From positions 1 through 20,588 of IMG/VR virus record IMGVR_UViG_3300020168_000035: a stretch of 20,588 nt of DNA; one strand, 5' to 3'. This stretch comes from a virus. This document shows positions 6,141 through 16,428 of the stretch, one piece after another (position 1 is the stretch's first letter; every line of letters begins with the position of its first letter). Below the pieces are notes generated by a model. That model did not search any database and was not told the DNA's origin. It worked only from the letters and a program-made list of their open reading frames with translations. The position numbers were made by a program, and so were the translations under genes.

Positions 6141-6212
6141 TTTAATTTGTTATTACTAATATAATAAAAAAACCCGAGATAAAAAAATCTCGGGTCAATT
6201 ATTTTTCAAAAA
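6141..6212 (-). repeat. Intergenic terminator/promoter cassette, copy B
   Basis: This is the second copy of the 72-base cassette, with outer blocks at 6141-6173 and 6193-6212 identical to copy A. Here the central 19 bases, with flanking bases, form a perfect GC-containing hairpin. On the minus strand the hairpin's T-run leads directly into TTATTATATTAG, so termination of the upstream operon and initiation of the next gene are packed together. Confidence 0.8.
6172..6195 (-). terminator. Rho-independent terminator
   Basis: The minus strand forms the 9-base-pair stem ACCCGAGAT / ATCTCGGGT around a T-only loop, followed by a run of seven T. It lies about 30 bases past the stop at 6225 and would end the operon of the ATP-grasp fusion. 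Confidence 0.85.
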
Positions 6213-6224
6213 GTTATTAACAAT

Positions 6225-6971
6225 TTAGAACTTTGGAGTATCCGGTACATATTTAGATGCCATTTCCATAAATGGTTTAATAACTATTGATACCAAAGCT
6301 CCGCCTATGGTTGCAAATGTTTCTTCATCAATAGCAATGATAGGTGCTTTATCAGTAGGATCGCCAACCGCTGGCCAAACATATTCTCCAGCACCATAGT
6401 TGTAAGTTACCCAATCTTCATTATTAGTATCTACTTTATCTTGTCTAGCGATATGACGAGTTAAAAGTACTCGATTCAAATGAACTCCGGCTTCATGCGA
6501 GATTTGCTCAACAAGCGCAGTTAATGCGCCAACCTTTTCAGCAGCTCCTCCCATTCTAGTCCCATTATTCCAGAAGTATATGTCCTTACCGCCATTCATA
6601 ATATTAACCATACCATAAATAATTGCGTCGTCTTTACTTTCTTTACCGGATTCGACATCTCTTTTAACTTCTTCTTCAGGAATACCCATAAATTTTTCTA
6701 CATCTTTACCTAAACTATAAACTCCTGTAGAATATTTAGAAAAGGCCATTGTAAAAGAGTCCTTAATAGTCGTTCCTGTTATCGTTGAATCCGGGTGTTC
6801 GACTTTAATAGAAAAGTCAAATTTTTTTGCTTCTGTATTTTCATCTGAAGGAGCATCGGTAACTGTCCATTTTGCAATATAAGTTCCTGGATACGACAAT
6901 TCGAAAGAATTGCTGCCTATATCTTCAGTAGCCTCAAAAACAAATTCATTAAATGATGGAATATTTTTCAT
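6225..6971 (-). CDS. Unknown head-associated protein with capsid-targeting-like leader
   Basis: The protein has 248 residues. Its N-terminus MKNIPSFNEFVFEA resembles the leaders of T4 internal proteins (such as MKTYQEFIAEA), which target proteins into the prohead and are cut after Glu by the gp21 protease. Here the cut would be after E13. A beta-rich region (about 20-90) and an alpha/beta domain follow. HEAGVH at 159-164 and another His at 173 sit on a predicted helix. The spacing is HExxxH, not the HExxH of zincin proteases, so metal binding is only possible. The final 30 residues are hydrophobic and helical. The gene is last in the operon, 8 bases after the ATP-grasp gene and before a strong terminator. 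Confidence 0.7.
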   Translation of the reverse strand: MKNIPSFNEFVFEATEDIGSNSFELSYPGTYIAKWTVTDAPSDENTEAKKFDFSIKVEHPDSTITGTTIKDSFTMAFSKYSTGVYSLGKDVEKFMGIPEEEVKRDVESGKESKDDAIIYGMVNIMNGGKDIYFWNNGTRMGGAAEKVGALTALVEQISHEAGVHLNRVLLTRHIARQDKVDTNNEDWVTYNYGAGEYVWPAVGDPTDKAPIIAIDEETFATIGGALVSIVIKPFMEMASKYVPDTPKF

Positions 6972-6979
6972 TTTTTATT

Positions 6980-8434
6980 TTATTTTTCGAATTCTATACC
7001 TCCATACACTTCACCAATAGTACTTTCAGGATCATATTCACCCGTAAACTCAGTGGCTTTAAACGCTTTTGATGGACTAACAATTATGCCTAACCTATCC
7101 ATAAACGAACGATTCGCTAAAGCCGGTGTACTTTTATCTTTTCTATCAACTACTGATATATGAACATGCGGTACTAATTTTCCTGCAAATACTATATCCT
7201 TTTCAATAATAGGTCGCTTTTCAACCTTATCGCCAACTACCGCATTTGCGTATCCAACTATTTTATCTTTAAATTTCTTTCCGTTAATTTCCCATTCAAG
7301 ATACTTGCCTTTTTCTTCAGCCTTATCACCATGTATAGTCATAGATTTAGATCCATTGCCTGTGTCCATTTTTACAACCATTTCTCCAATTCCGGGAATT
7401 GTTAAACATTCGCGGAATCCACAGTGTATCGTCGGATATGTCCAATTTGCTTTATCTAAAATATAATCTAGAACAACACCCATTACTGGAATACCAGTAG
7501 CCTCGGTTATACCTTTAGTTCCTGGTGAAGCATTGACTTCCAATATGTATGGCTTTTTAGTTTCTTTGTCGATGATTAAATCAACAGCACACCAGGTACA
7601 ATCAACCGCTTTTGCTGCACCTTTAGCTATTTCTTCCATTTCTTGAGTTAACTTAATCTTTTTAACTCCTCCACCAATTGAGTAATTAGTTCTAAAATCC
7701 TTTTTTGCAGCAGTTCTCTTCATTGCCGCAACCACTTCAGATTGTTCCTCTCTAGGACTGAAGAATTTTTTAGAAAGAACGTGAATCCGAACATCGCCAT
7801 CAGCAGGAACTTTTTCTTGTAAAAGAATTTCGTTCTTGCCACTAGCTTTCCAAAGTGTTTGTAATACCGATTTTAAAGATTCGTAAGAATCTACTTGAGA
7901 AACTCCAATTCCTTGAGATCCGGAAAGCATCTTTACAATAATAGGAAACTTACCGCCGATTTCTTTCAATGCATTATCAATTCCATCAGGATCAGAAACA
8001 ATTGCGTTTTTAGGAGTAGGTAATCCATTTGCTTCAAGAATACGGTTAGTTGTATTCTTGTTTTCACAATTCATTATTGACTCGATTTCATTAACACAAA
8101 AGAAATTGTAAGATTCTAAATCTTCTACTAATTGTCTTGTATATGTTGATGAAACTACACCGCGTCTATTAATGATAACTGTATTCAATCTATTGATAGA
8201 AAATGGTTTTGTTTCTGCATCACCAATTTTAATATCGTTTCTCTTATTAACATATTCTTTAATATATGCAGTTGATGCATCTAAAGCAAAGCATGGAACA
8301 CTACGCTTAGCACATTCCTTTTTGATAGTCTCTACCGTCGTTGATTTACTATCTAAGTTAGACAAAACCACGACTTGAACTGAATCAAGAGAGAGGGCTT
8401 CGGTAATCATCTGAAAGTTTTCGAAGTGTCTCAT
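6980..8434 (-). CDS. RimK-like ATP-grasp ligase fused to a retropepsin-like protease domain (PF05618-like)
   Basis: The protein has 484 residues. Residues 1-13 (MRHFENFQMITEA) look like a capsid-targeting leader with a cut after E12. Residues 15-325 match RimK-type ATP-grasp enzymes, which form amide or peptide bonds using ATP. Visible are the nucleotide lysine in IIVKMLSGSQGIG (K168), QEKV (206-209), DVRIHVL with D214 and R216, RTN (248-250), a GGG loop (254-256), D285, and EVNASPG with E299 and N301. Residues 340-460 resemble the RimK-associated putative protease family. They hold MDTGNGSKS with D357-T358-G359 and a late segment LANRSFMDRLGIIVSPSKAF typical of its C-terminal strand. The start overlaps the previous gene as ATGA. 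Ligation target and protease activity are unknown. Confidence 0.88.
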   Translation of the reverse strand: MRHFENFQMITEALSLDSVQVVVLSNLDSKSTTVETIKKECAKRSVPCFALDASTAYIKEYVNKRNDIKIGDAETKPFSINRLNTVIINRRGVVSSTYTRQLVEDLESYNFFCVNEIESIMNCENKNTTNRILEANGLPTPKNAIVSDPDGIDNALKEIGGKFPIIVKMLSGSQGIGVSQVDSYESLKSVLQTLWKASGKNEILLQEKVPADGDVRIHVLSKKFFSPREEQSEVVAAMKRTAAKKDFRTNYSIGGGVKKIKLTQEMEEIAKGAAKAVDCTWCAVDLIIDKETKKPYILEVNASPGTKGITEATGIPVMGVVLDYILDKANWTYPTIHCGFRECLTIPGIGEMVVKMDTGNGSKSMTIHGDKAEEKGKYLEWEINGKKFKDKIVGYANAVVGDKVEKRPIIEKDIVFAGKLVPHVHISVVDRKDKSTPALANRSFMDRLGIIVSPSKAFKATEFTGEYDPESTIGEVYGGIEFEK

Positions 8435-8913
8435 TTATTTGTTATGTATTTTAAGAAGTTCTTTCTATCTTTATTTATCAAACGTTTGCAATGTTCTGTG
8501 AATGCTACCGAGTTATTTAATATCAATTCACTTACGATCTTACCGTTGTTAGTATATGTATCATAGCAATCTTTGCAAGTAAAATTCTTTACTGAGAAAT
8601 CATCCATTTTTGAATTGATTTCTTTTTGACAAAATGAGCAATTCCAAGGAATTATTCGTATTTCATCCTGTAATCGCTTTCTTGGTTTTACTTCTAAATC
8701 CGTAGGATCTATGAAGTATTTGCTTTTGTTTTTAATTCTCGATTCTCTATCAACTATACCAAATAGTATATTAACAAACTTATCATCTTCACAGGATTCC
8801 TTAATGAATTCGTATTTCTTTAAGGTTTGTTGATAAAGAGGTTTAAGACCTTTTAGAACGATTCCATGCTTAGTTGGATTCTTTCCTGGCTTAGATCGTT
8901 TGATTTGAATCAT
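8431..8913 (-). CDS. Unknown protein with a CxxC...CxxC zinc-ribbon-like site
   Basis: The protein has 160 residues, basic at the N-terminus (KRSKPGKNPTKHG). At about residues 91-118 it carries CSFC and CKDC pairs about 20 residues apart, spaced as in a zinc ribbon, with further helical sequence after (TEHCKRLINKDRKNF). It lies between the coiled-coil protein gene and the ATP-grasp fusion gene. Its start overlaps the former by about 23 bases and its TGA overlaps the latter's ATG, so the three are translationally coupled. A nucleic-acid-binding or protein-interaction role is usual for such ribbons, but the actual partner is not visible. The whole-protein family is not recognised. Confidence 0.75.
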   Translation of the reverse strand: MIQIKRSKPGKNPTKHGIVLKGLKPLYQQTLKKYEFIKESCEDDKFVNILFGIVDRESRIKNKSKYFIDPTDLEVKPRKRLQDEIRIIPWNCSFCQKEINSKMDDFSVKNFTCKDCYDTYTNNGKIVSELILNNSVAFTEHCKRLINKDRKNFLKYITNK

Positions 8914-11266
8914 TATATGCTTTATAGAATTTAGACCTAAAAGATTCGTTAGTAGTATCCGCCTTCTTTTCTGGCTTATCTTCTTTCACTTTAAAGTTTT
9001 TGTCCGTTAAATTGATTTCAGGATACATTGGATCTTTTGGATCGTCTAATTTAATTTTGTAAACTTGTGGGTCTCCAGTTCTCATCGGTAAATCTCCTTC
9101 CGGTTCACGCTCGTTTTCTTTGAATACTTTAATTATTTCGCCTGTTGCACCATCTAATTGACCCATATCCTTATTTCTCATGTCAACTAGTACAACCTTT
9201 TTACCTTGAAGTGTATTACCTTTATCTTCTTTTGCCTTACCAGAATCATCACTCTTTGTTTTGGCAGGTTCTTCTTCTAATAATTCTTTTCTCGTTTCAA
9301 CAATGATATTATATTCGTTTAGCAATGTATCTATATCACGTTCGAGTATAGCTAAACTAAATTTGTAATATGCAGATTCACCGAGCTTATCTTTCATTTT
9401 ACGAAGTTCAACTTTCTTGTCGTTGAATGCCTTTATATTAGCTTCAACCGATTCTTTCTTTTCAGCAGGAACCTTCCCTGATTTGATTGCTTCTTTTGCG
9501 CCTTCGATCTTTTGGTTTATTCTTTCGATTTCTGAATCAATGGCTTCTTTTCTTTTAGCAACATCCTTCTTTTTATCCTCAGCCTCTTTTGCATCTATTT
9601 CGGCTTGTTTATCTTTAACTCCTTGTTCTGCTTTATCAATATCGCTATCCGATGCGTCAACTTTGTCTGTTGCTGCTTTTTCAGTTTCTTCGCCCTGTTT
9701 CATTCTTTCTTCAGCATCTCTTTCTTGTGCATCTAATGCTTTTTCTTGTTTTGCTTTATCTTTATCACTAAGCATATCATTTGTGGTTATTGCATCTCGC
9801 TTAGCCTGTAGTACTTCTTGATCGTGTTCTGCTTTTATTTTCTGAACGTATCCTTTAGCGAAACCAAATATCTTTCCTCCAAGGCCACTTGCCTTTTCAC
9901 CGCCACCACTGGTTCCACTTATTCTATCAGCATCCTTTGTAGCTTGTTCAACTTCAGCGCTTAATTGTTCTTTCTCCTTGGTGGCCTGTTCTTCGGCTTG
10001 TGCCTTTTCTTTTTCGCCACCTCTAGGTTTTCCTTTTTCTTTTATGTCTTTAAGCTCATCGTCAAAGCTAGAAACCTCATCCTTTAAGGCTTGTTTTTCT
10101 GCCTTTAATGCTTTAACGTCGTTATTTTTACTAAGCTCGTCTTTAATATCGCTTCGTTGTTGTAAAAGTTTTTCGAGATTACCTTTGATTTTATCTACCT
10201 CCTTTTGAGCAGCTTCCTTCTCCGGATTTTCTCCGTCTTTAAGCTGTTTAATTTGATCAGCTAATTTTGCTTTTTGATCTCCTAATTTTTTATTCTGAGA
10301 ATCGTCTGATTTTAATCCTTTTCGTTGATCTTCAATTTTATCTATTTGTTTTTGAAGCTTTTCAACTTCCTTTTCTATTTCCTTTGGATCTAAAGTCGCA
10401 TCTTTAACCTTTTGCTGAGCTTTTTGTAATTCGCCATCCTCTCCGCCAGATTCTTTATTTTCTGCAGGTTTTTCACCCTCTTCATTTACTGATTCTTCCG
10501 TTGTTTCCTTTGCGTCTGTTTTCTGTGTAGTGTCTGCAGTTGTAGTGTCTGCAGTTGGAGTGTCTGCAGTTGGAGTTTCTTCAGTTGGAGTTTCTTCCTC
10601 CTCTTTTGGTGCTTGAGTAGGGTCTATTTCCCGTATCCCTGCATTAACATCTTTTAATTTCGTTTTAAGATCAGTAGTTTCTTTTTCTTTATCTGCGTCA
10701 AAGTTATCTAGCTCGGTTTTCTTTTCTGACTTTTTCGCTTCGATTTCTTTAGTCTTCTCTTCGACTTCTTCTTTACTTAATTCAGGTTCGAATTCTCGTA
10801 ACTTATCTGCAAGATCTTTATCAACGGTTATCTTCTCTAATTTTTTATCTCTAACTGCTTCCCATGCCTTTCTAATTTTCTTTTTCTTAAACAAGAAACT
10901 TATATATGCAGCCAAAGAAGCAGCACCAGCGACTGCAGTGACACCGGCAGTTTGTATTCCTTTACTGATATCGTCATCCCAACCTTCTTCATTTAAGTAA
11001 TTTTCATTAAGGGAAAGTGTTTGGTCAAAAGACTCAAATCTAGATTCTTCTACTAATCCAGAATTTATCATTAATTCTTTTAATAAGTTGTAGTGTGATT
11101 CGCATAGTCTAGCACTATTTTGATTGCTAATAAGCAATAAATATCTAACCATCTCATCGAATTCAGGATCTGTAACTTTTTGTAAATCTTCGTAGGTAGC
11201 TAATCTCCGAAGTCCTATAACCGTTTCATTTATACGATTGTATTCTTCTCTTGATAATAAGTTCAT
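8891..11266 (-). CDS. Large membrane-anchored coiled-coil protein, 791 residues
   Basis: Residues 1-100 are a helical acidic domain. Residues 104-126 (GIQTAGVTAVAGAASLAAYI and on) form one hydrophobic segment followed by KKKKIRK, as in a single transmembrane or virion-membrane-active helix. From about 130 to 640 the sequence is almost wholly Lys, Glu, Asp, Ala and Gln in heptad-like order: long coiled coils broken by a Thr/Pro/Glu linker with pentapeptide repeats. A second small glycine-containing patch (GTSGGGEKASGLGGKIFGF) sits in the middle. The C-terminal ~100 residues contain a beta-barrel-like segment (KKVVLVDMRNKDMGQLDG). Several N-E-(S/N/E) sites resemble prohead-protease sites. I do not recognise a family. 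It is first in the operon leading to the ATP-grasp fusion; an internal head or ejected structural protein is possible. Confidence 0.8.
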   Translation of the reverse strand: MNLLSREEYNRINETVIGLRRLATYEDLQKVTDPEFDEMVRYLLLISNQNSARLCESHYNLLKELMINSGLVEESRFESFDQTLSLNENYLNEEGWDDDISKGIQTAGVTAVAGAASLAAYISFLFKKKKIRKAWEAVRDKKLEKITVDKDLADKLREFEPELSKEEVEEKTKEIEAKKSEKKTELDNFDADKEKETTDLKTKLKDVNAGIREIDPTQAPKEEEETPTEETPTADTPTADTTTADTTQKTDAKETTEESVNEEGEKPAENKESGGEDGELQKAQQKVKDATLDPKEIEKEVEKLQKQIDKIEDQRKGLKSDDSQNKKLGDQKAKLADQIKQLKDGENPEKEAAQKEVDKIKGNLEKLLQQRSDIKDELSKNNDVKALKAEKQALKDEVSSFDDELKDIKEKGKPRGGEKEKAQAEEQATKEKEQLSAEVEQATKDADRISGTSGGGEKASGLGGKIFGFAKGYVQKIKAEHDQEVLQAKRDAITTNDMLSDKDKAKQEKALDAQERDAEERMKQGEETEKAATDKVDASDSDIDKAEQGVKDKQAEIDAKEAEDKKKDVAKRKEAIDSEIERINQKIEGAKEAIKSGKVPAEKKESVEANIKAFNDKKVELRKMKDKLGESAYYKFSLAILERDIDTLLNEYNIIVETRKELLEEEPAKTKSDDSGKAKEDKGNTLQGKKVVLVDMRNKDMGQLDGATGEIIKVFKENEREPEGDLPMRTGDPQVYKIKLDDPKDPMYPEINLTDKNFKVKEDKPEKKADTTNESFRSKFYKAYNDSNQTI
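10531..10590 (-). repeat. Four tandem 15-base repeats within the coiled-coil gene
   Basis: On the plus strand the unit is TGTCTGCAGTTGGAG: two exact copies (10546-10575), one with a single change, and a fourth with three changes. It encodes the pentapeptides TPTEE, TPTAD, TPTAD, TTTAD in a flexible linker, consistent with slippage expansion. Confidence 0.9.
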
Positions 11267-11298: not shown

Positions 11299-11312
11299 TC
11301 GTACAAAAAAAC

Positions 11313-11338
11313 AAAAGGTCTCCCGAAGGAGACCTTTT
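11313..11338 (-). terminator. Rho-independent terminator with cUUCGg loop, after the capsid gene
   Basis: On the minus strand, AAAAGGTCTCC pairs perfectly with GGAGACCTTTT around the loop TTCG, giving the very stable C(UUCG)G tetraloop, followed by GTTTTTTTG. It lies 27 bases after the major capsid gene's stop. Confidence 0.95.
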
Positions 11339-11364
11339 GCGTATAATCTATGTGTTAGTTATGA

Positions 11365-13017
11365 TTAAACTAATTGTCCAACCTCACTAGCGACACCGAA
11401 TGTCAAGTACATAGTTTCAGGGTGGAATCCAGCCTCAACTAAAGCGTAACGAGATTTTACAGCGATTTTTGGCGCCATAGTTCCCTCAGCGATAGTTTGT
11501 ACAGATTCAGCCATTAAGTAAGGCATGAATACAAGACCTGGAGAGTTTCCATCACCTTTTCTACCTACAGTTACTCGAGTATCACTCCAGCTCATGTAAG
11601 GATCAACATAAACCGCTAATCCAGCCAAAGTACCAATTGGGTACAAAGAACCAGTTTGTTGGTTAATGGTGTTAGCCATTGGAGCAGGAACGAATCCAGC
11701 AACATCTTGAAGAGCAGATCCAACTTGGCCGTTAGTCACTACGAAAGTAGCAGGACCACGACGTCCACGGATAGCGATCAAGTTAGCAACAGCCAAGACC
11801 TTAGACATGATTTTTCTCTGACGAGTGTGAAGGTTCTCAGCAGAAGATTGGTAAACTTCAGAAGCAGGAACTGAAGGATTGTATAATCCAGTAGTACCGA
11901 ATACCGCAGCACCATCAGATCCTTTAGAATCTAAAGCAGCTAATCCAGGGATAGCAGAGTAGTTAGCGGCAGAAGTTGCACCAACTGCTAAGTTAAATTG
12001 AACACCTTGAGTTTTGTATACGTTACCGTGGTTAGTGTAACCAAGTCTACGTAATCTTTCAAGGATGTTTTTGTTGATGTCTTGAGTTAACTCGTTGATA
12101 AGTACTGATTCAACTTGTGCAACAGCATCGATACCGAATTGCTTCAAGTCTTGAACTTGCTCACGAGTTACTGCAGCAGCAACTTGGTAAGTTTTAGCCT
12201 CAACAGATTTGTTGAATAGGCTCAAGTTCATTACGTTATCTTGAGTAGACTCACCTTCTAATCTTGACATAGGCTCAGAAGAACCATCCCAGGTATTAGA
12301 AGAGAAACCGATTACGTGATCTTCAAGAGCTTTTACTAAAGCAGGAGCGCTAGATACAGTAGCTCCAGTAGCAACACCGCCAAGAGCGATAGTAGCACCA
12401 GTAGCGAAAGCAGAAGCAACAGTTTTACCAGATCCGAGAGAATCAACTTTCCAGATTTCGTATCCGTCAATTCTTGATTCACCTACGAAGGTAACAGTTG
12501 CATCAGCAGCACCTACCGAGTAAGTAGTACCAACAACGAATGCAGTACCAGGAGCGGTAGTATCAGCTTTGATGATAAGTGGCATATCAGGTGAAGTTCC
12601 AACACCAGATAAGAATCCACCAGTTTGTCCGACAGTAGGTACTTTACCTCCAGCGTACACAAAATCTAAGTAAGTCAAGATTCCCATAGGGCCGTTCATA
12701 GGAACAACCGGTACAAGATCAAGACCAACAGTTTGAGCCGCAACTTGCATTGCAAGTGGAAGAAGAGTGTAAGGCTTATCGCCAGAACCTGTAGTTTGAG
12801 TATCGAATGCAGTTTGAGCACCTGGGTTACCAGGGAATCTAACTGACCCCATACCATTTACAGAACCAACAGTTGCGTAAGAATTGTTCTCATACAACTC
12901 GTGGTTATGGCAATATTTTGACATCCACTCTAATTTACCTTTGTCTTCGATTCCGGTAGTAGACTCAATAATAGGAGCCCATTTACCGAAGATTTCAGAT
13001 TCATTAATTAAGTTCAT
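11365..13017 (-). CDS. 23: Major capsid protein (T4 gp23-like)
   Basis: The protein has 550 residues; T4 gp23 has 521. It builds the icosahedral head shell in the HK97 fold. Recognisable parts are the N-terminal KWAPIIE segment (like T4 KWKPLLE), the QPMNSP-like segment PVVPMNGPMGILTYLDFVYA, and the helix YQVAAAVTREQVQDLKQFGI with VESVLINELTQDIN. Also visible are the P-domain segment NLIAIRGRRGPATFVVTNGQ, VYVDPYMSWSDTRVTVGRKG and MPYLMAESV, and the tail ending TFGVASEVGQLV. The order following portal and protease matches T4. A T4-type propeptide cut may fall after E43 (ELYE/NNSY) or at another early Glu. The gene is visibly less AT-rich than its neighbours, as expected for a highly expressed protein. 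No ATATATAA box precedes it, so it probably shares the transcript from 14807. Confidence 0.95.
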   Translation of the reverse strand: MNLINESEIFGKWAPIIESTTGIEDKGKLEWMSKYCHNHELYENNSYATVGSVNGMGSVRFPGNPGAQTAFDTQTTGSGDKPYTLLPLAMQVAAQTVGLDLVPVVPMNGPMGILTYLDFVYAGGKVPTVGQTGGFLSGVGTSPDMPLIIKADTTAPGTAFVVGTTYSVGAADATVTFVGESRIDGYEIWKVDSLGSGKTVASAFATGATIALGGVATGATVSSAPALVKALEDHVIGFSSNTWDGSSEPMSRLEGESTQDNVMNLSLFNKSVEAKTYQVAAAVTREQVQDLKQFGIDAVAQVESVLINELTQDINKNILERLRRLGYTNHGNVYKTQGVQFNLAVGATSAANYSAIPGLAALDSKGSDGAAVFGTTGLYNPSVPASEVYQSSAENLHTRQRKIMSKVLAVANLIAIRGRRGPATFVVTNGQVGSALQDVAGFVPAPMANTINQQTGSLYPIGTLAGLAVYVDPYMSWSDTRVTVGRKGDGNSPGLVFMPYLMAESVQTIAEGTMAPKIAVKSRYALVEAGFHPETMYLTFGVASEVGQLV

Positions 13018-13040: not shown

Positions 13041-14780
13041 TTATTTGTTAAAGCGTCGTTTAAGTCCTTCTGTAACAGTATCCATGTAAGTGTTTGGAGT
13101 TTCATACTTTGAATCGTCTTTCGATTCGTTCAAAGATTTTTCTTCAACCAATTGCTCAGATGGATTGTGTGAACGTAATTCTCTAGTTGCCCAGAAGTGA
13201 TCGATCTTATACTGAGTATCGAGATTTCTCACAGATGCTTGAGCTTTAATCGCAGTTTGTTGAGATTCATTTAATGACTCCCACAAGCTTTGATATTTGC
13301 TCGGCATATTTTCTAGCCAATCTAAAGTCTTAACAGGCTCAGCGAATACTGACTCCCAAATAGATGATGCATCAGCAGATCCAAACCAAGATTTTGACTC
13401 ATAAGCTCTAATAACTTGCGTTTTAGTCTCATCATCAAATCCTTTAAATTCGTTTCTACGTGATTCATTCAAGAAATTTAAGAAGTGAGTGTTAGCAGAC
13501 GTTTCTTCCACTTTTTGCGTCTTAGCGGATTCGACTAACGCTTGAATTTTATTTGATAGTTCGTTTTTGAATGTTTCGTTTTCAGTTACAATTGTTTCTT
13601 CTACAGTAGTTTCTTCAGATTCATTAATAGGCTCTTTTGAAGTTACCTCAACCTCAGCCTCATTTAATGACTTAACAATATAATCAGTATATTTACCTAA
13701 GTTTTCTACGTTTTCTTTAATATACTCGCTATATGAAACCGCAGCATCGATACCTTCAACCAAGTAGTTTTGATAATCGATTACTTTGTCTACGTTTTCG
13801 TTAACATAATCTTGATATTCGAAGCGACTGTTTACATTTTCAACTACATGCTTAGAATACTCAATATTTTGATCGGTTTTAAGACCAACATATTCAGCAT
13901 AATCTTTTACTCTAGTAAGATTTTCAATGATGTAATCGTTGTGTGAAATTAAATTGTCAACGTTTTCGCTCACCTTCTCAACGTAAGAAGATAATTCGTT
14001 AACTCTCTTAGCAACCGTTTCGGTATATTGAATTAAATCAGGAGTTTGGTTACCTTCCGTGATCTTTTCCATATCACCTTTAAGAGATTCAAATTGCTCT
14101 TTGATGATTTTTGAGTATTCGTTAAAATCCTCGACGGAAACGAAATTACCTTGTCCCTCATTAATGGTTTTCATATCTGTAGAATTTTCCATTGTTTCGA
14201 GTTCTTTTTGTATTTCTAAGTTGTTATTTTCTATATATCCTTGCAATTCAAAGATTTGTACATTATCGTCGTTCTCGAAACCATAAGCTTCATTAACTCT
14301 TTTGAGTTCGGCGTTTTCAAATCCAGGATCTGCCACTAAATCGTAAGTAAATAACTTCTTGATTTTAACGTGACCATTATTCTCAACCACACCAGCAGCT
14401 CTACTTGAAATATGAATAGGAATACCTCCATCAACAAGAGCTTTAGCTTGTTTTCCAGCCTCAGTATCAAGCAAACGGATTTTACCTTTTACTACCTTAT
14501 TGGCTTTATCATAAGTGATTTCTTCTATTACGTGTGATACGTTTTTTAATGAGATGTCAAATTGCTTAGGGTGATCTAATTCACCAAGCAACTTGCCGTT
14601 TTTAATCTTCTCTTGAAGAGATTCAATGTGAGGAATTAATTCCTTTTCATCATAAATTCGGTTATTCTTATTCTTCTTACCGATTTCAGAAAAGGTACCT
14701 TCCAAAACATATTTTTCGTCGGCACTTGCTTCGAGGATCGATGTTGATCTTTCGAGTACCAATAATTTTGGTTGATCCAT
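13041..14780 (-). CDS. 21: Prohead protease fused to scaffold/core protein (gp21-gp22 fusion)
   Basis: The protein has 579 residues. Residues 1-170 match the gp21-type S77 serine protease that matures the prohead. The active-site His is in GELDHP (H70) and the Ser in HISSRAAG (S125 or S126), with the usual NKNNRIYDEK start. The remaining ~400 residues are helical, replacing the separate gp22 scaffold of T4. Nine consecutive 14-residue units occupy 252-377, and a helical tail carries several L/I-N-E-S/A sites (163, 206, 372, 386, 437, 503, 550). Such sites fit the gp21 cut rule (hydrophobic-x-Glu), so self-processing into protease, core and peptides is likely. It lies between portal and capsid genes and has its own ATATATAA box. 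Confidence 0.93.
   Translation of the reverse strand: MDQPKLLVLERSTSILEASADEKYVLEGTFSEIGKKNKNNRIYDEKELIPHIESLQEKIKNGKLLGELDHPKQFDISLKNVSHVIEEITYDKANKVVKGKIRLLDTEAGKQAKALVDGGIPIHISSRAAGVVENNGHVKIKKLFTYDLVADPGFENAELKRVNEAYGFENDDNVQIFELQGYIENNNLEIQKELETMENSTDMKTINEGQGNFVSVEDFNEYSKIIKEQFESLKGDMEKITEGNQTPDLIQYTETVAKRVNELSSYVEKVSENVDNLISHNDYIIENLTRVKDYAEYVGLKTDQNIEYSKHVVENVNSRFEYQDYVNENVDKVIDYQNYLVEGIDAAVSYSEYIKENVENLGKYTDYIVKSLNEAEVEVTSKEPINESEETTVEETIVTENETFKNELSNKIQALVESAKTQKVEETSANTHFLNFLNESRRNEFKGFDDETKTQVIRAYESKSWFGSADASSIWESVFAEPVKTLDWLENMPSKYQSLWESLNESQQTAIKAQASVRNLDTQYKIDHFWATRELRSHNPSEQLVEEKSLNESKDDSKYETPNTYMDTVTEGLKRRFNK
13650..14027 (-). repeat. Nine 14-residue (42-base) coding repeats in the scaffold domain
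   Basis: Units run without gaps from residue 252 to 377, with consensus Y-x-x-Y-(V/I)-x-E-N-V-(D/E)-x-(L/V)-x-x. Examples are YQDYVNENVDKVID and YSEYIKENVENLGK. A tenth, separated unit (YSKIIKEQFESLKG) is at 222-235. The period equals two heptads. The DNA copies have diverged, so the repeat shows mainly in protein. Confidence 0.85.
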
Positions 14781-14838: not shown

Positions 14839-16428
14839 TTACATGCCATCCTCGTCTTGTGCCATTGCATCAAGTTCTTCTTGCTCTTTCTTCTTCATTT
14901 TTGCATTAGATCTAATATCCTCTTCACTAAGATCTAAGAAACGTCTAATTAAGAATTCAGATGAGAAGTATTTAATTTCGTTTCCATTTGGATCGTAATC
15001 AACAAGTCCATCCTTCATTGTGGTAATAAAGTCAATTCTCTTTTGTAATAACTCCATTTCCTTCATTTCTTCGAAGACATTATACTTGTTAAATTTAACA
15101 CCAACCTGAGACTTAAACGAATCATCGTTCATTAAGTCAGGATAATCTAATGTCATTTGAATCCAAAGGGGTTTTACTACGATTTCTTGGAATACTGATC
15201 TTAAGCGATTAATAAATCTACCGAATTTAATTTCGTCTCTTGTAAGTCCTTCAGCATTGATTTCCCATGATGGCGGATTTTCAACATCGAATCGGTTCAT
15301 AGGAATTTTAGAAACTCGGCGTAAATTTTCTTTGAAGTATTTTAATGAATCTGTATCTGAAAGATCAGGACCATCACCGCCGATTGTTTCGATTTGTGGA
15401 GAACCAGCGTCACCCTCAGGTAACCAATATTCTTTATTAAATGGCATCATCGGACGACCATTAGTTTTTAATTCACCACTATCATAATCAAAATCAACCT
15501 GTTCACGATAGTTTTGCATCAAAACACCGAGAGATTGTTTTGCTCTCGTTTTCGACTTACCACCGACAGGAATAATAAATTTAGTTTTGAACGATGAATT
15601 AACAACTGCCCAAATAATTCTAGAATGCTCCATGATACGAAGCAAGTTAAACGAACGAATAAGTCTCTCAACGTAAGATATTCGAGTTGGCGAATTCATG
15701 TTAGCATAGGAAATGTAAATGATCTGCGAATCATATAACATCCTTGCTTTTCCAGGAACATCCTTAAATTGTTTCCAAACTCTTTTACCTTGATCGTCGA
15801 TTCCTGGTTCTAATGTGATCGGATCTAATTCCTTGAATCCGATAACGTTTCTCTGATCATTATCATATATTATCTCAAACGCTAGATAACCATCAACTAG
15901 CCATTTCCTAAAGTATGACCAAGCGGTGATATCGTTATTAAAACCAAAGTATTGATAAATTCTCTTGAAATTAATTGAAATGGCCCCTCGAATTTCTTCA
16001 ACCTTTTCGGGTGCTAATAAATCATCATCAAATAAAAGGGGATCACAAAAATAATTCTTGCTATCATAAACAACACACTCATCACAAAGTGTATCTAAAA
16101 TTTCTTCTATTTCATCTTGAACCGCGAATCTTCTAAGTTCTTCTCGCTTTTTTGGATATGACTTATCAAATATTGATATTGATTTTTTGAGTGCAATATC
16201 GGAAAGTGCAAGGTTTGCAAAAAGCGCATAATCATCATAATCACCACCAACTAAACCTCGTGGATCGTATGTCCAACCGAATTGATCCTCAACAATACCA
16301 ACGGCTTGAGAATTACGAAGCACCATATCGTCGTACTTCATTCCAAAAGAACTGAGTTGTTTTAGGGCATTAGATGCAATAAACCTAGGTCCATTTGCAC
16401 CATCACCTCTTTCTACAAATCCTGCCAT
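14839..16428 (-). CDS. 20: Portal protein (T4 gp20-like)
   Basis: The protein has 529 residues; T4 gp20 has 524. Twelve copies form the head vertex ring for DNA packaging and tail attachment. Diagnostic parts are the clip/stem segment DSQIIYISYANM...YVERLIRSFNLLRIMEHSRIIW, the GGKSKTRAKQSLGVLMQNYR segment, the tunnel-region sequence EYWLPEGDAGSPQIETIGGD, and the late conserved block SLKYFKENLRRVSKIPMNRF. GLTRDEIKFGRFINRLR then follows, as in gp20. The C-terminus ends in a charged coil (KMKKKEQEELDAMAQDEDGM). The gene starts the conserved portal-protease-capsid run and has an ATATATAA box immediately after the preceding gene's stop. Confidence 0.95.
   Translation of the reverse strand: MAGFVERGDGANGPRFIASNALKQLSSFGMKYDDMVLRNSQAVGIVEDQFGWTYDPRGLVGGDYDDYALFANLALSDIALKKSISIFDKSYPKKREELRRFAVQDEIEEILDTLCDECVVYDSKNYFCDPLLFDDDLLAPEKVEEIRGAISINFKRIYQYFGFNNDITAWSYFRKWLVDGYLAFEIIYDNDQRNVIGFKELDPITLEPGIDDQGKRVWKQFKDVPGKARMLYDSQIIYISYANMNSPTRISYVERLIRSFNLLRIMEHSRIIWAVVNSSFKTKFIIPVGGKSKTRAKQSLGVLMQNYREQVDFDYDSGELKTNGRPMMPFNKEYWLPEGDAGSPQIETIGGDGPDLSDTDSLKYFKENLRRVSKIPMNRFDVENPPSWEINAEGLTRDEIKFGRFINRLRSVFQEIVVKPLWIQMTLDYPDLMNDDSFKSQVGVKFNKYNVFEEMKEMELLQKRIDFITTMKDGLVDYDPNGNEIKYFSSEFLIRRFLDLSEEDIRSNAKMKKKEQEELDAMAQDEDGM

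Follow-up and report, generated by a model that had tools for sequence, protein, structure and literature searches.

A phage protein joining a RimK-like ligase to a retropepsin-like domain, with a capsid-targeting-like N terminus

Results

One chain carries a ligase and a protease domain

We analyzed a 20,588-nucleotide stretch of viral DNA (IMG/VR record IMGVR_UViG_3300020168_000035, positions 1 to 20,588), here called the window, and focused on one of its genes, which encodes a RimK-like ATP-grasp ligase and, C-terminal to it, a retropepsin-like domain (PF05618/RimB/RloA family). The gene is the third of four minus-strand genes (791 amino acids [aa], 160 aa, the fusion, and 248 aa) that lie between two terminator-like hairpins (Table 1). 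A preliminary description of this DNA, made from its letters alone, had proposed that the two domains share one chain, and this was confirmed, as profiles, predicted fold, and catalytic residues agree. All of the residues it had named (K168, D214/R216, RTN 248-250, D285, EVN 299-301, and D357-T-G) were found at their named positions. Across the family alignment, K168, D214, R216, R248, N250, D285, E299, N301, D357, T358, and G359 were invariant (51/51), as was R240 of the ligase domain, and the position of T249 held T or S in 50 of 51 sequences. The C-terminal tail (residues 464 to 484) lies outside both domains and is conserved in most of the family.

Table 1. Features of the window around the ligase-protease fusion gene
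Feature	Position	Strand	Remarks
Ligase-protease (RimK-RimB) fusion gene	6980..8434	minus	484 aa, ATG start
Capsid-targeting-like propeptide, codons 1-12	8399..8434	minus	MRHFENFQMITE; predicted prohead-protease cut E12/A13
RimK-like ATP-grasp ligase domain	7439..8380	minus	residues ~19-332; profile and structure matches
Retropepsin-like domain, PF05618/RimB/RloA family	7046..7429	minus	residues ~336-463; family profile and predicted fold
Active-site motif D357-T-G-N360	7355..7366	minus	N360 where the cellular relatives read have A
C-terminal tail, residues 464-484	6983..7045	minus	GGI.FE-type motif (KG....GI.FE)
Intrinsic-terminator-like hairpin closing the four-gene unit	6171..6196	minus	consensus match only
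Protein of 248 aa, last gene of the unit	6225..6971	minus	N terminus MKNIPSFNEFVFEA strictly fits the capsid-targeting pattern
Zinc-finger-like protein, 160 aa	8431..8913	minus	ATGA overlap with the fusion gene
Lys/Glu/Asp-rich protein, 791 aa, first gene of the unit	8891..11266	minus	N-terminal I-N-E site
Strong intrinsic-terminator-like hairpin, boundary of major capsid gene and four-gene unit	11311..11340	minus	consensus match only
Major head protein, T4 gp23-like	11365..13017	minus	PHROG 138
Head maturation (prohead) protease, T4 gp21-like	13041..14780	minus	PHROG 207; expected propeptide cutter
Portal protein, T4 gp20-like	14839..16428	minus	PHROG 213

Profile searches matched the window protein to PF08443 (E = 1e-32; 113.6 bits versus a cut-off of 21 bits) and to TIGR00768 (159.5 bits versus a curated cut-off of 143.4), but the protein did not reach the cut-off of the S6-specific RimK equivalog NF007764 (98.4 bits versus 331). 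By score, then, its ligase is a member of the RimK family and not the S6-specific equivalog. The full-length AlphaFold model (mean predicted local distance difference test [pLDDT], 85) matched Pseudomonas RimK (7qys; Z, 31.1; 2.7 Å over 289 residues), and the residues for ATP/Mg and substrate (K168, R248, N250, D285, E299, and N301) aligned with those of RimK structures. The fusion protein probably performs glutamate ligation.

The protease half was recognized at the level of the family. PF05618 did not match the window sequence alone (hmmscan), even with a lax threshold on the window record; 35 of 42 homologous domains matched it at an E value of ≤1 (best, 9e-10). A profile of the family matched the structures 2pma, 9g59, and 9g58 at ~1e-10, placing D357 on the catalytic Asp and DTG on DTG. 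Because ligase matches filled the structure list of the full-length model and no retropepsin appeared in it, the protease domain was also folded alone (pLDDT, 88). This domain model matched RloA2 (Z, 16.4 over 126 residues), Lpg0085 (2pma; Z, 16.1), and RloA (Z, 15.6), compared with a Z of about 9 for HIV protease. Given the family-level PF05618 matches and the RloA2-like fold, the preliminary assignment of the C-terminal domain holds.

Outside the DTG motif, R431 was invariant (51/51), R407 was found in 50 of 51 sequences, and the position of K355 held K or R in 50 of 51. The structures and polyglutamate cleavage of RloA have been described, and there four residues, including K46, R114, and R137, are reported to contact polyglutamate from both protomers (PMC12239564). 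In our own register through the 9g58 alignment, these three correspond to K355, R407, and R431. The retention of three of the four contact positions speaks for polyglutamate as the substrate of the protease domain without demonstrating it, and we lean slightly toward active polyglutamate cleavage by the fusion protein. At four viral or Firmicutes MAG (metagenome-assembled genome) loci (L115, L140, L141, and L184), an apparent protease-ligase order was an artifact of taking the first domain hit instead of the best one; in the three of these from IMG/VR (L115, L140, and L141), DTGN follows the ligase at residues 364 to 367. These three had also been suspected as the source of “DTGLP” strings recorded at three loci, but they have DTGN.

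The N terminus resembles a T4 capsid-targeting sequence

The ligase fold begins at about residue 19, and the extension before it reads MRHFENFQMITEALS, of which residues 1 to 15 were disordered in the AlphaFold model (pLDDT, <50). Such extensions had a median length of 22 residues in the phage fusions versus about 0 to 15 in most standalone cellular RimKs, where the fold begins at residue 1 or 2 or a few residues later. For comparison, the N terminus of T4 IPII/IPIII is MKTYQEFIAE/A. In that sequence, targeting to the head is assigned to residues 4 and 7 and control of cleavage to residues 8 and 10; the cut by gp21 falls behind L/I-x-E (PMC9026906). The window protein has F4 and F7 at the T4 positions 4 and 7 and an I-x-E/A site behind them.

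A pattern built on the T4 sequence was found in 28 of 58 family members versus 12 of 914 N termini of other genes on the same contigs, and in 4 of 3,924 internal windows in the same count. A slightly wider pattern matched 27 of 70 nonredundant fusions; shuffled sequences gave 0.06 matches on average, and none of 877 internal windows matched. It is important to note that this was a directed test, with the T4 sequence already known when the pattern was built, and that the counts are not independent events because the family members are related. Nevertheless, the match is specific to the N terminus and arises amid diverged sequence, and its anchor residues are those that the T4 experiments tie to targeting (4 and 7) and processing (8 and 10). 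The capsid and prohead protease proteins of the window likewise have I-x-E/S or I-x-E/A sites near their own N termini. On another contig (L061:6684-7427), a P-loop kinase/ATPase-like protein encoded upstream of the fusion also has a capsid-targeting-like start (MMFSFAKFLSEAK), which suggests that other enzymes may be packaged likewise.

Gene neighborhood and virion association

The preliminary description had placed the gene in a head operon. This is correct for the window and for the five records closest to it, which keep the order portal-protease-capsid-791-zinc finger-fusion, but not beyond them. Mosig, YerA41, and the majority of the IMG/VR relatives have the gene outside the head cluster, among replication or unrelated genes. 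Since the head-gene order is found only in the nearest relatives, “head operon” is not the rule of the family. A conserved partner gene was also considered and rejected, as no neighbor is shared across the whole family. A search for T4-type late promoters (TATAAATA) found none on the strand of the fusion gene. Judging by its composition, the 791-aa protein beside the capsid gene is possibly a head core or scaffold protein.

Evidence from virions comes from the Yersinia phage YerA41, in which g112, “Ribosomal protein modification protein,” is asterisked for detection by liquid chromatography-tandem mass spectrometry in purified particles (PMC7354516). We identified g112 with YerA41_066 by its position after reductase genes. 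This homologue is a full-length fusion, and its GenBank entry reads “structural protein.” Better evidence for association with the virion than the operon context comes from the capsid-targeting-like propeptide and from the mass spectrometry of YerA41 particles, and we consider it likely that the fusion protein is packaged in the phage head.

Extent and history of the family

Scans of IMG/VR recovered 491 relatives with three full-length fusions as queries and 582 when only the protease domain served as the query. Among the 80 loci listed for that domain, it sits behind a ligase. Some relatives lie on contigs of 200 to 430 kb, and the cultured carriers are Pelagibacter phage Mosig and the Yersinia ruckeri phages YerA41 and GN1. 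On this evidence, the ligase-protease (K-B) order appears to belong to a phage-specific family. Fusions in this order were also met on contigs of bacterial and archaeal metagenome-assembled genomes (MAGs), including a Thaumarchaeota MAG (L173 to L184, some of jumbo size). A true occurrence in cells was considered and rejected, as the contigs whose neighboring genes we read resemble misbinned phage DNA.

A tree of 63 ligase domains places the fusions and a few ligase-only relatives on one side of a branch (support, 89/98; branch not starred), separate from cellular RimKs and from those of the cyanophages S-RIM8 and S-RIM12. This topology fits a single fusion origin with later loss (L003 and L188) and decay (L075 and L175) of the protease. 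The label count on the tree needs three changes, and one origin is thus not proven. The two ligase-only genes, from Methylophilales phage Melnitz-3 (L003:82-1131) and a Flavobacteriales MAG contig (L188:1484-2524), nest within the fusion clade; they lack the protease domain and retain the capsid-targeting-like N terminus. In the two decayed members (L075:6545-8314 and L175:872-2635), the ligase is intact, the protease motif reads FDDN for FDTG, and the C terminus is longer.

Other architectures were also observed. Two proteins (L072:908-3076 and L073:1728-3896) have three domains, with a nucleotidyltransferase-like N-terminal domain (FGRFQPPTIGHEKL) before the ligase and the protease. At another locus (L070:7935-8990 and the following frames), the frame of the fusion breaks where the protease domain begins, through either a natural split or an error in sequencing, and the remainder is partly readable downstream.

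In these scans, a protease without a ligase was never met, whereas a ligase does occur without an intact protease. This asymmetry points to ligation as the core function and to trimming as a regulatory one. The loss or ruin of the protease half in relatives that keep the ligase also weighs on the proposal, made in the preliminary description, that the protein modifies its target reversibly.

Discussion

A proposed head-packaged enzyme and the alternatives

From these results, we infer the following route. The four-gene unit beside the capsid gene would yield the fusion protein, and its first 12 residues would carry it into the prohead core, where the phage prohead protease would remove the tag after ITE. 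The mature enzyme would lie beside the DNA inside the head and enter the host together with it. There, the RimK domain would use ATP to add glutamates to the C terminus of a host protein, and the RimB-like domain, as a dimer, would trim the glutamate chains or tune the ligase, such that chain length would be set on one polypeptide. Whether the fusion is, as this route has it, a head-packaged glutamate-editing enzyme that acts on a host protein we regard as an even question. Ribosomal protein S6 would be the natural choice for that host protein, but as the main target it is no more than a guess. The pairing of the two activities may also make the modification reversible, as the preliminary description had proposed.

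Several observations count against this proposal. Two extra residues separate F7 from ITE/A in the window tag, so that it failed the strict T4 spacing, and in the clade L049-L057 the I-x-E site is gone. The YerA41 homologue, g112, falls in the middle rather than the late expression class, and the YerA41 particle list also contains polymerases, helicases, and dUTPase (PMC7354516); because of these cytoplasmic enzymes, the detection of the homologue is supportive and not decisive. The intact viral motifs that we read have the unusual DTGN in place of DTGA. Lastly, in the sole published test of bacterial RimBK, a hybrid of the two domains known from Desulfotalea psychrophila and others, the protease was active but RpsF (S6) was not glutamylated (Little et al., PMC11957791).

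The expression class and the company that g112 keeps in YerA41 particles, together with the varied gene neighborhoods, would also suit an enzyme of host takeover or metabolism that is synthesized only once infection has begun, with an N-terminal motif that does not work in capsid targeting and a virion detection that reflects carry-over. We find this improbable, as the motif occurs much more often than chance would give, is specific to the N terminus, and is kept even by the ligase-only L003 and L188. A different role for the tag would be to bring the enzyme to the prohead inside the producing cell, where it would polyglutamylate, and later trim, a phage head or core protein during head morphogenesis. 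A tag that targets the core, an adjacent protein rich in Lys and Glu, and a position beside the genes for capsid, prohead protease, and portal, as seen in the window and in five related records close to it, speak for such a role. It is nonetheless an unlikely one, given that the gene lies elsewhere in the phages Mosig and YerA41 and in most relatives from IMG/VR and that none of the window head proteins examined has a polyglutamate tail or a Glu run longer than four.

It is also conceivable that the retropepsin domain is a dimerizing or stimulating module for the ligase and not a protease, which would be compatible with packaging in the head. Bacterial RimB stimulates RimK (PMC11957791), and the DTGN motif, the FDDN motif beside an intact ligase in L075 and L175, and the absence of the domain from L003 and L188 all point the same way. 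The invariance of D357, T358, G359, and R431 and the near invariance of R407 would be difficult to account for if the domain neither catalyzed a reaction nor bound a substrate, and we judge the domain rather unlikely to be such a module.

Extending head-packaged host modification to the family, many T4-like and jumbo phages would inject a polyglutamate writer-eraser that resets translation in the host, by way of S6 or some other factor, ahead of any phage gene expression; we hold this broader reading to be doubtful. If true, it would tie phages to the poorly understood modification of ribosomes by RimK and RimB and give that modification a testable role in infection. The fusion is in addition a natural single-chain ligase-protease for studying polyglutamate control.

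Comparison with known systems

The preliminary description had noted that in bacteria the ligase and the protease are typically neighboring genes. Neighboring genes are not the only arrangement there, since single-chain hybrids (RimBK) are known in bacteria as well, in the reverse domain order (PMC11957791). RimBK hybrids share with the phage protein a RimB-like retropepsin and a RimK ATP-grasp on one chain but are cellular, have the protease at the N terminus where the phage protein has it at the C terminus, and lack a capsid-targeting-like propeptide. Our genome scan recovered two such hybrids from Algimonas (L191 and L194), both with the protease-ligase (B-K) order and DTGA. What is new here is therefore the K-B phage architecture with its capsid-targeting-like tag, B-K hybrids being already known. 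Neither a family of phage proteins in the K-B order nor a capsid-targeting sequence on its members turned up in a literature search that did not cover subscription journals and one key survey, and a 2021 survey of jumbo phages mentions neither RimK nor aspartic proteases.

The RimABK system of Pseudomonas, in which RimK is the ligase and RimB the protease of RpsF polyglutamate, shares both enzyme families and the same expected chemistry with the phage protein. Its components are, however, encoded by separate genes, and the cellular RimB domains that we read have DTGA. No RimA was recognized beside the phage gene. RloA and RloA2 (9g58 and 9g59; PMC12239564) and Lpg0085 (2pma) share the fold of the C-terminal domain and three of the four contact positions. 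They are free-standing, with no ligase fused, and RloA and RloA2 are secreted. The “S6 glutaminyl transferase” of S-RIM8 and S-RIM12 (PHROG 2599) is, like the ligase half here, a RimK-like ATP-grasp in T4-like phages, but it has no protease domain and almost no N-terminal extension. As its ligase domain groups with cellular RimKs, it was probably acquired separately.

The T4 internal proteins IPI to IPIII and Alt begin with a short propeptide that has aromatic residues at positions 4 and 7 and is cut at I/L-x-E. The N terminus of the fusion resembles it, with the strict spacing in part of the family and a two-residue insert in the window protein. The enzyme domains are unrelated, and packaging and cleavage are proven for the T4 proteins and predicted for the fusion. 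T4 Alt is the classic example of an enzyme that a phage carries in its head to modify the host immediately; if our proposal is true, the fusion would bring a second chemistry to such head-carried, host-modifying enzymes.
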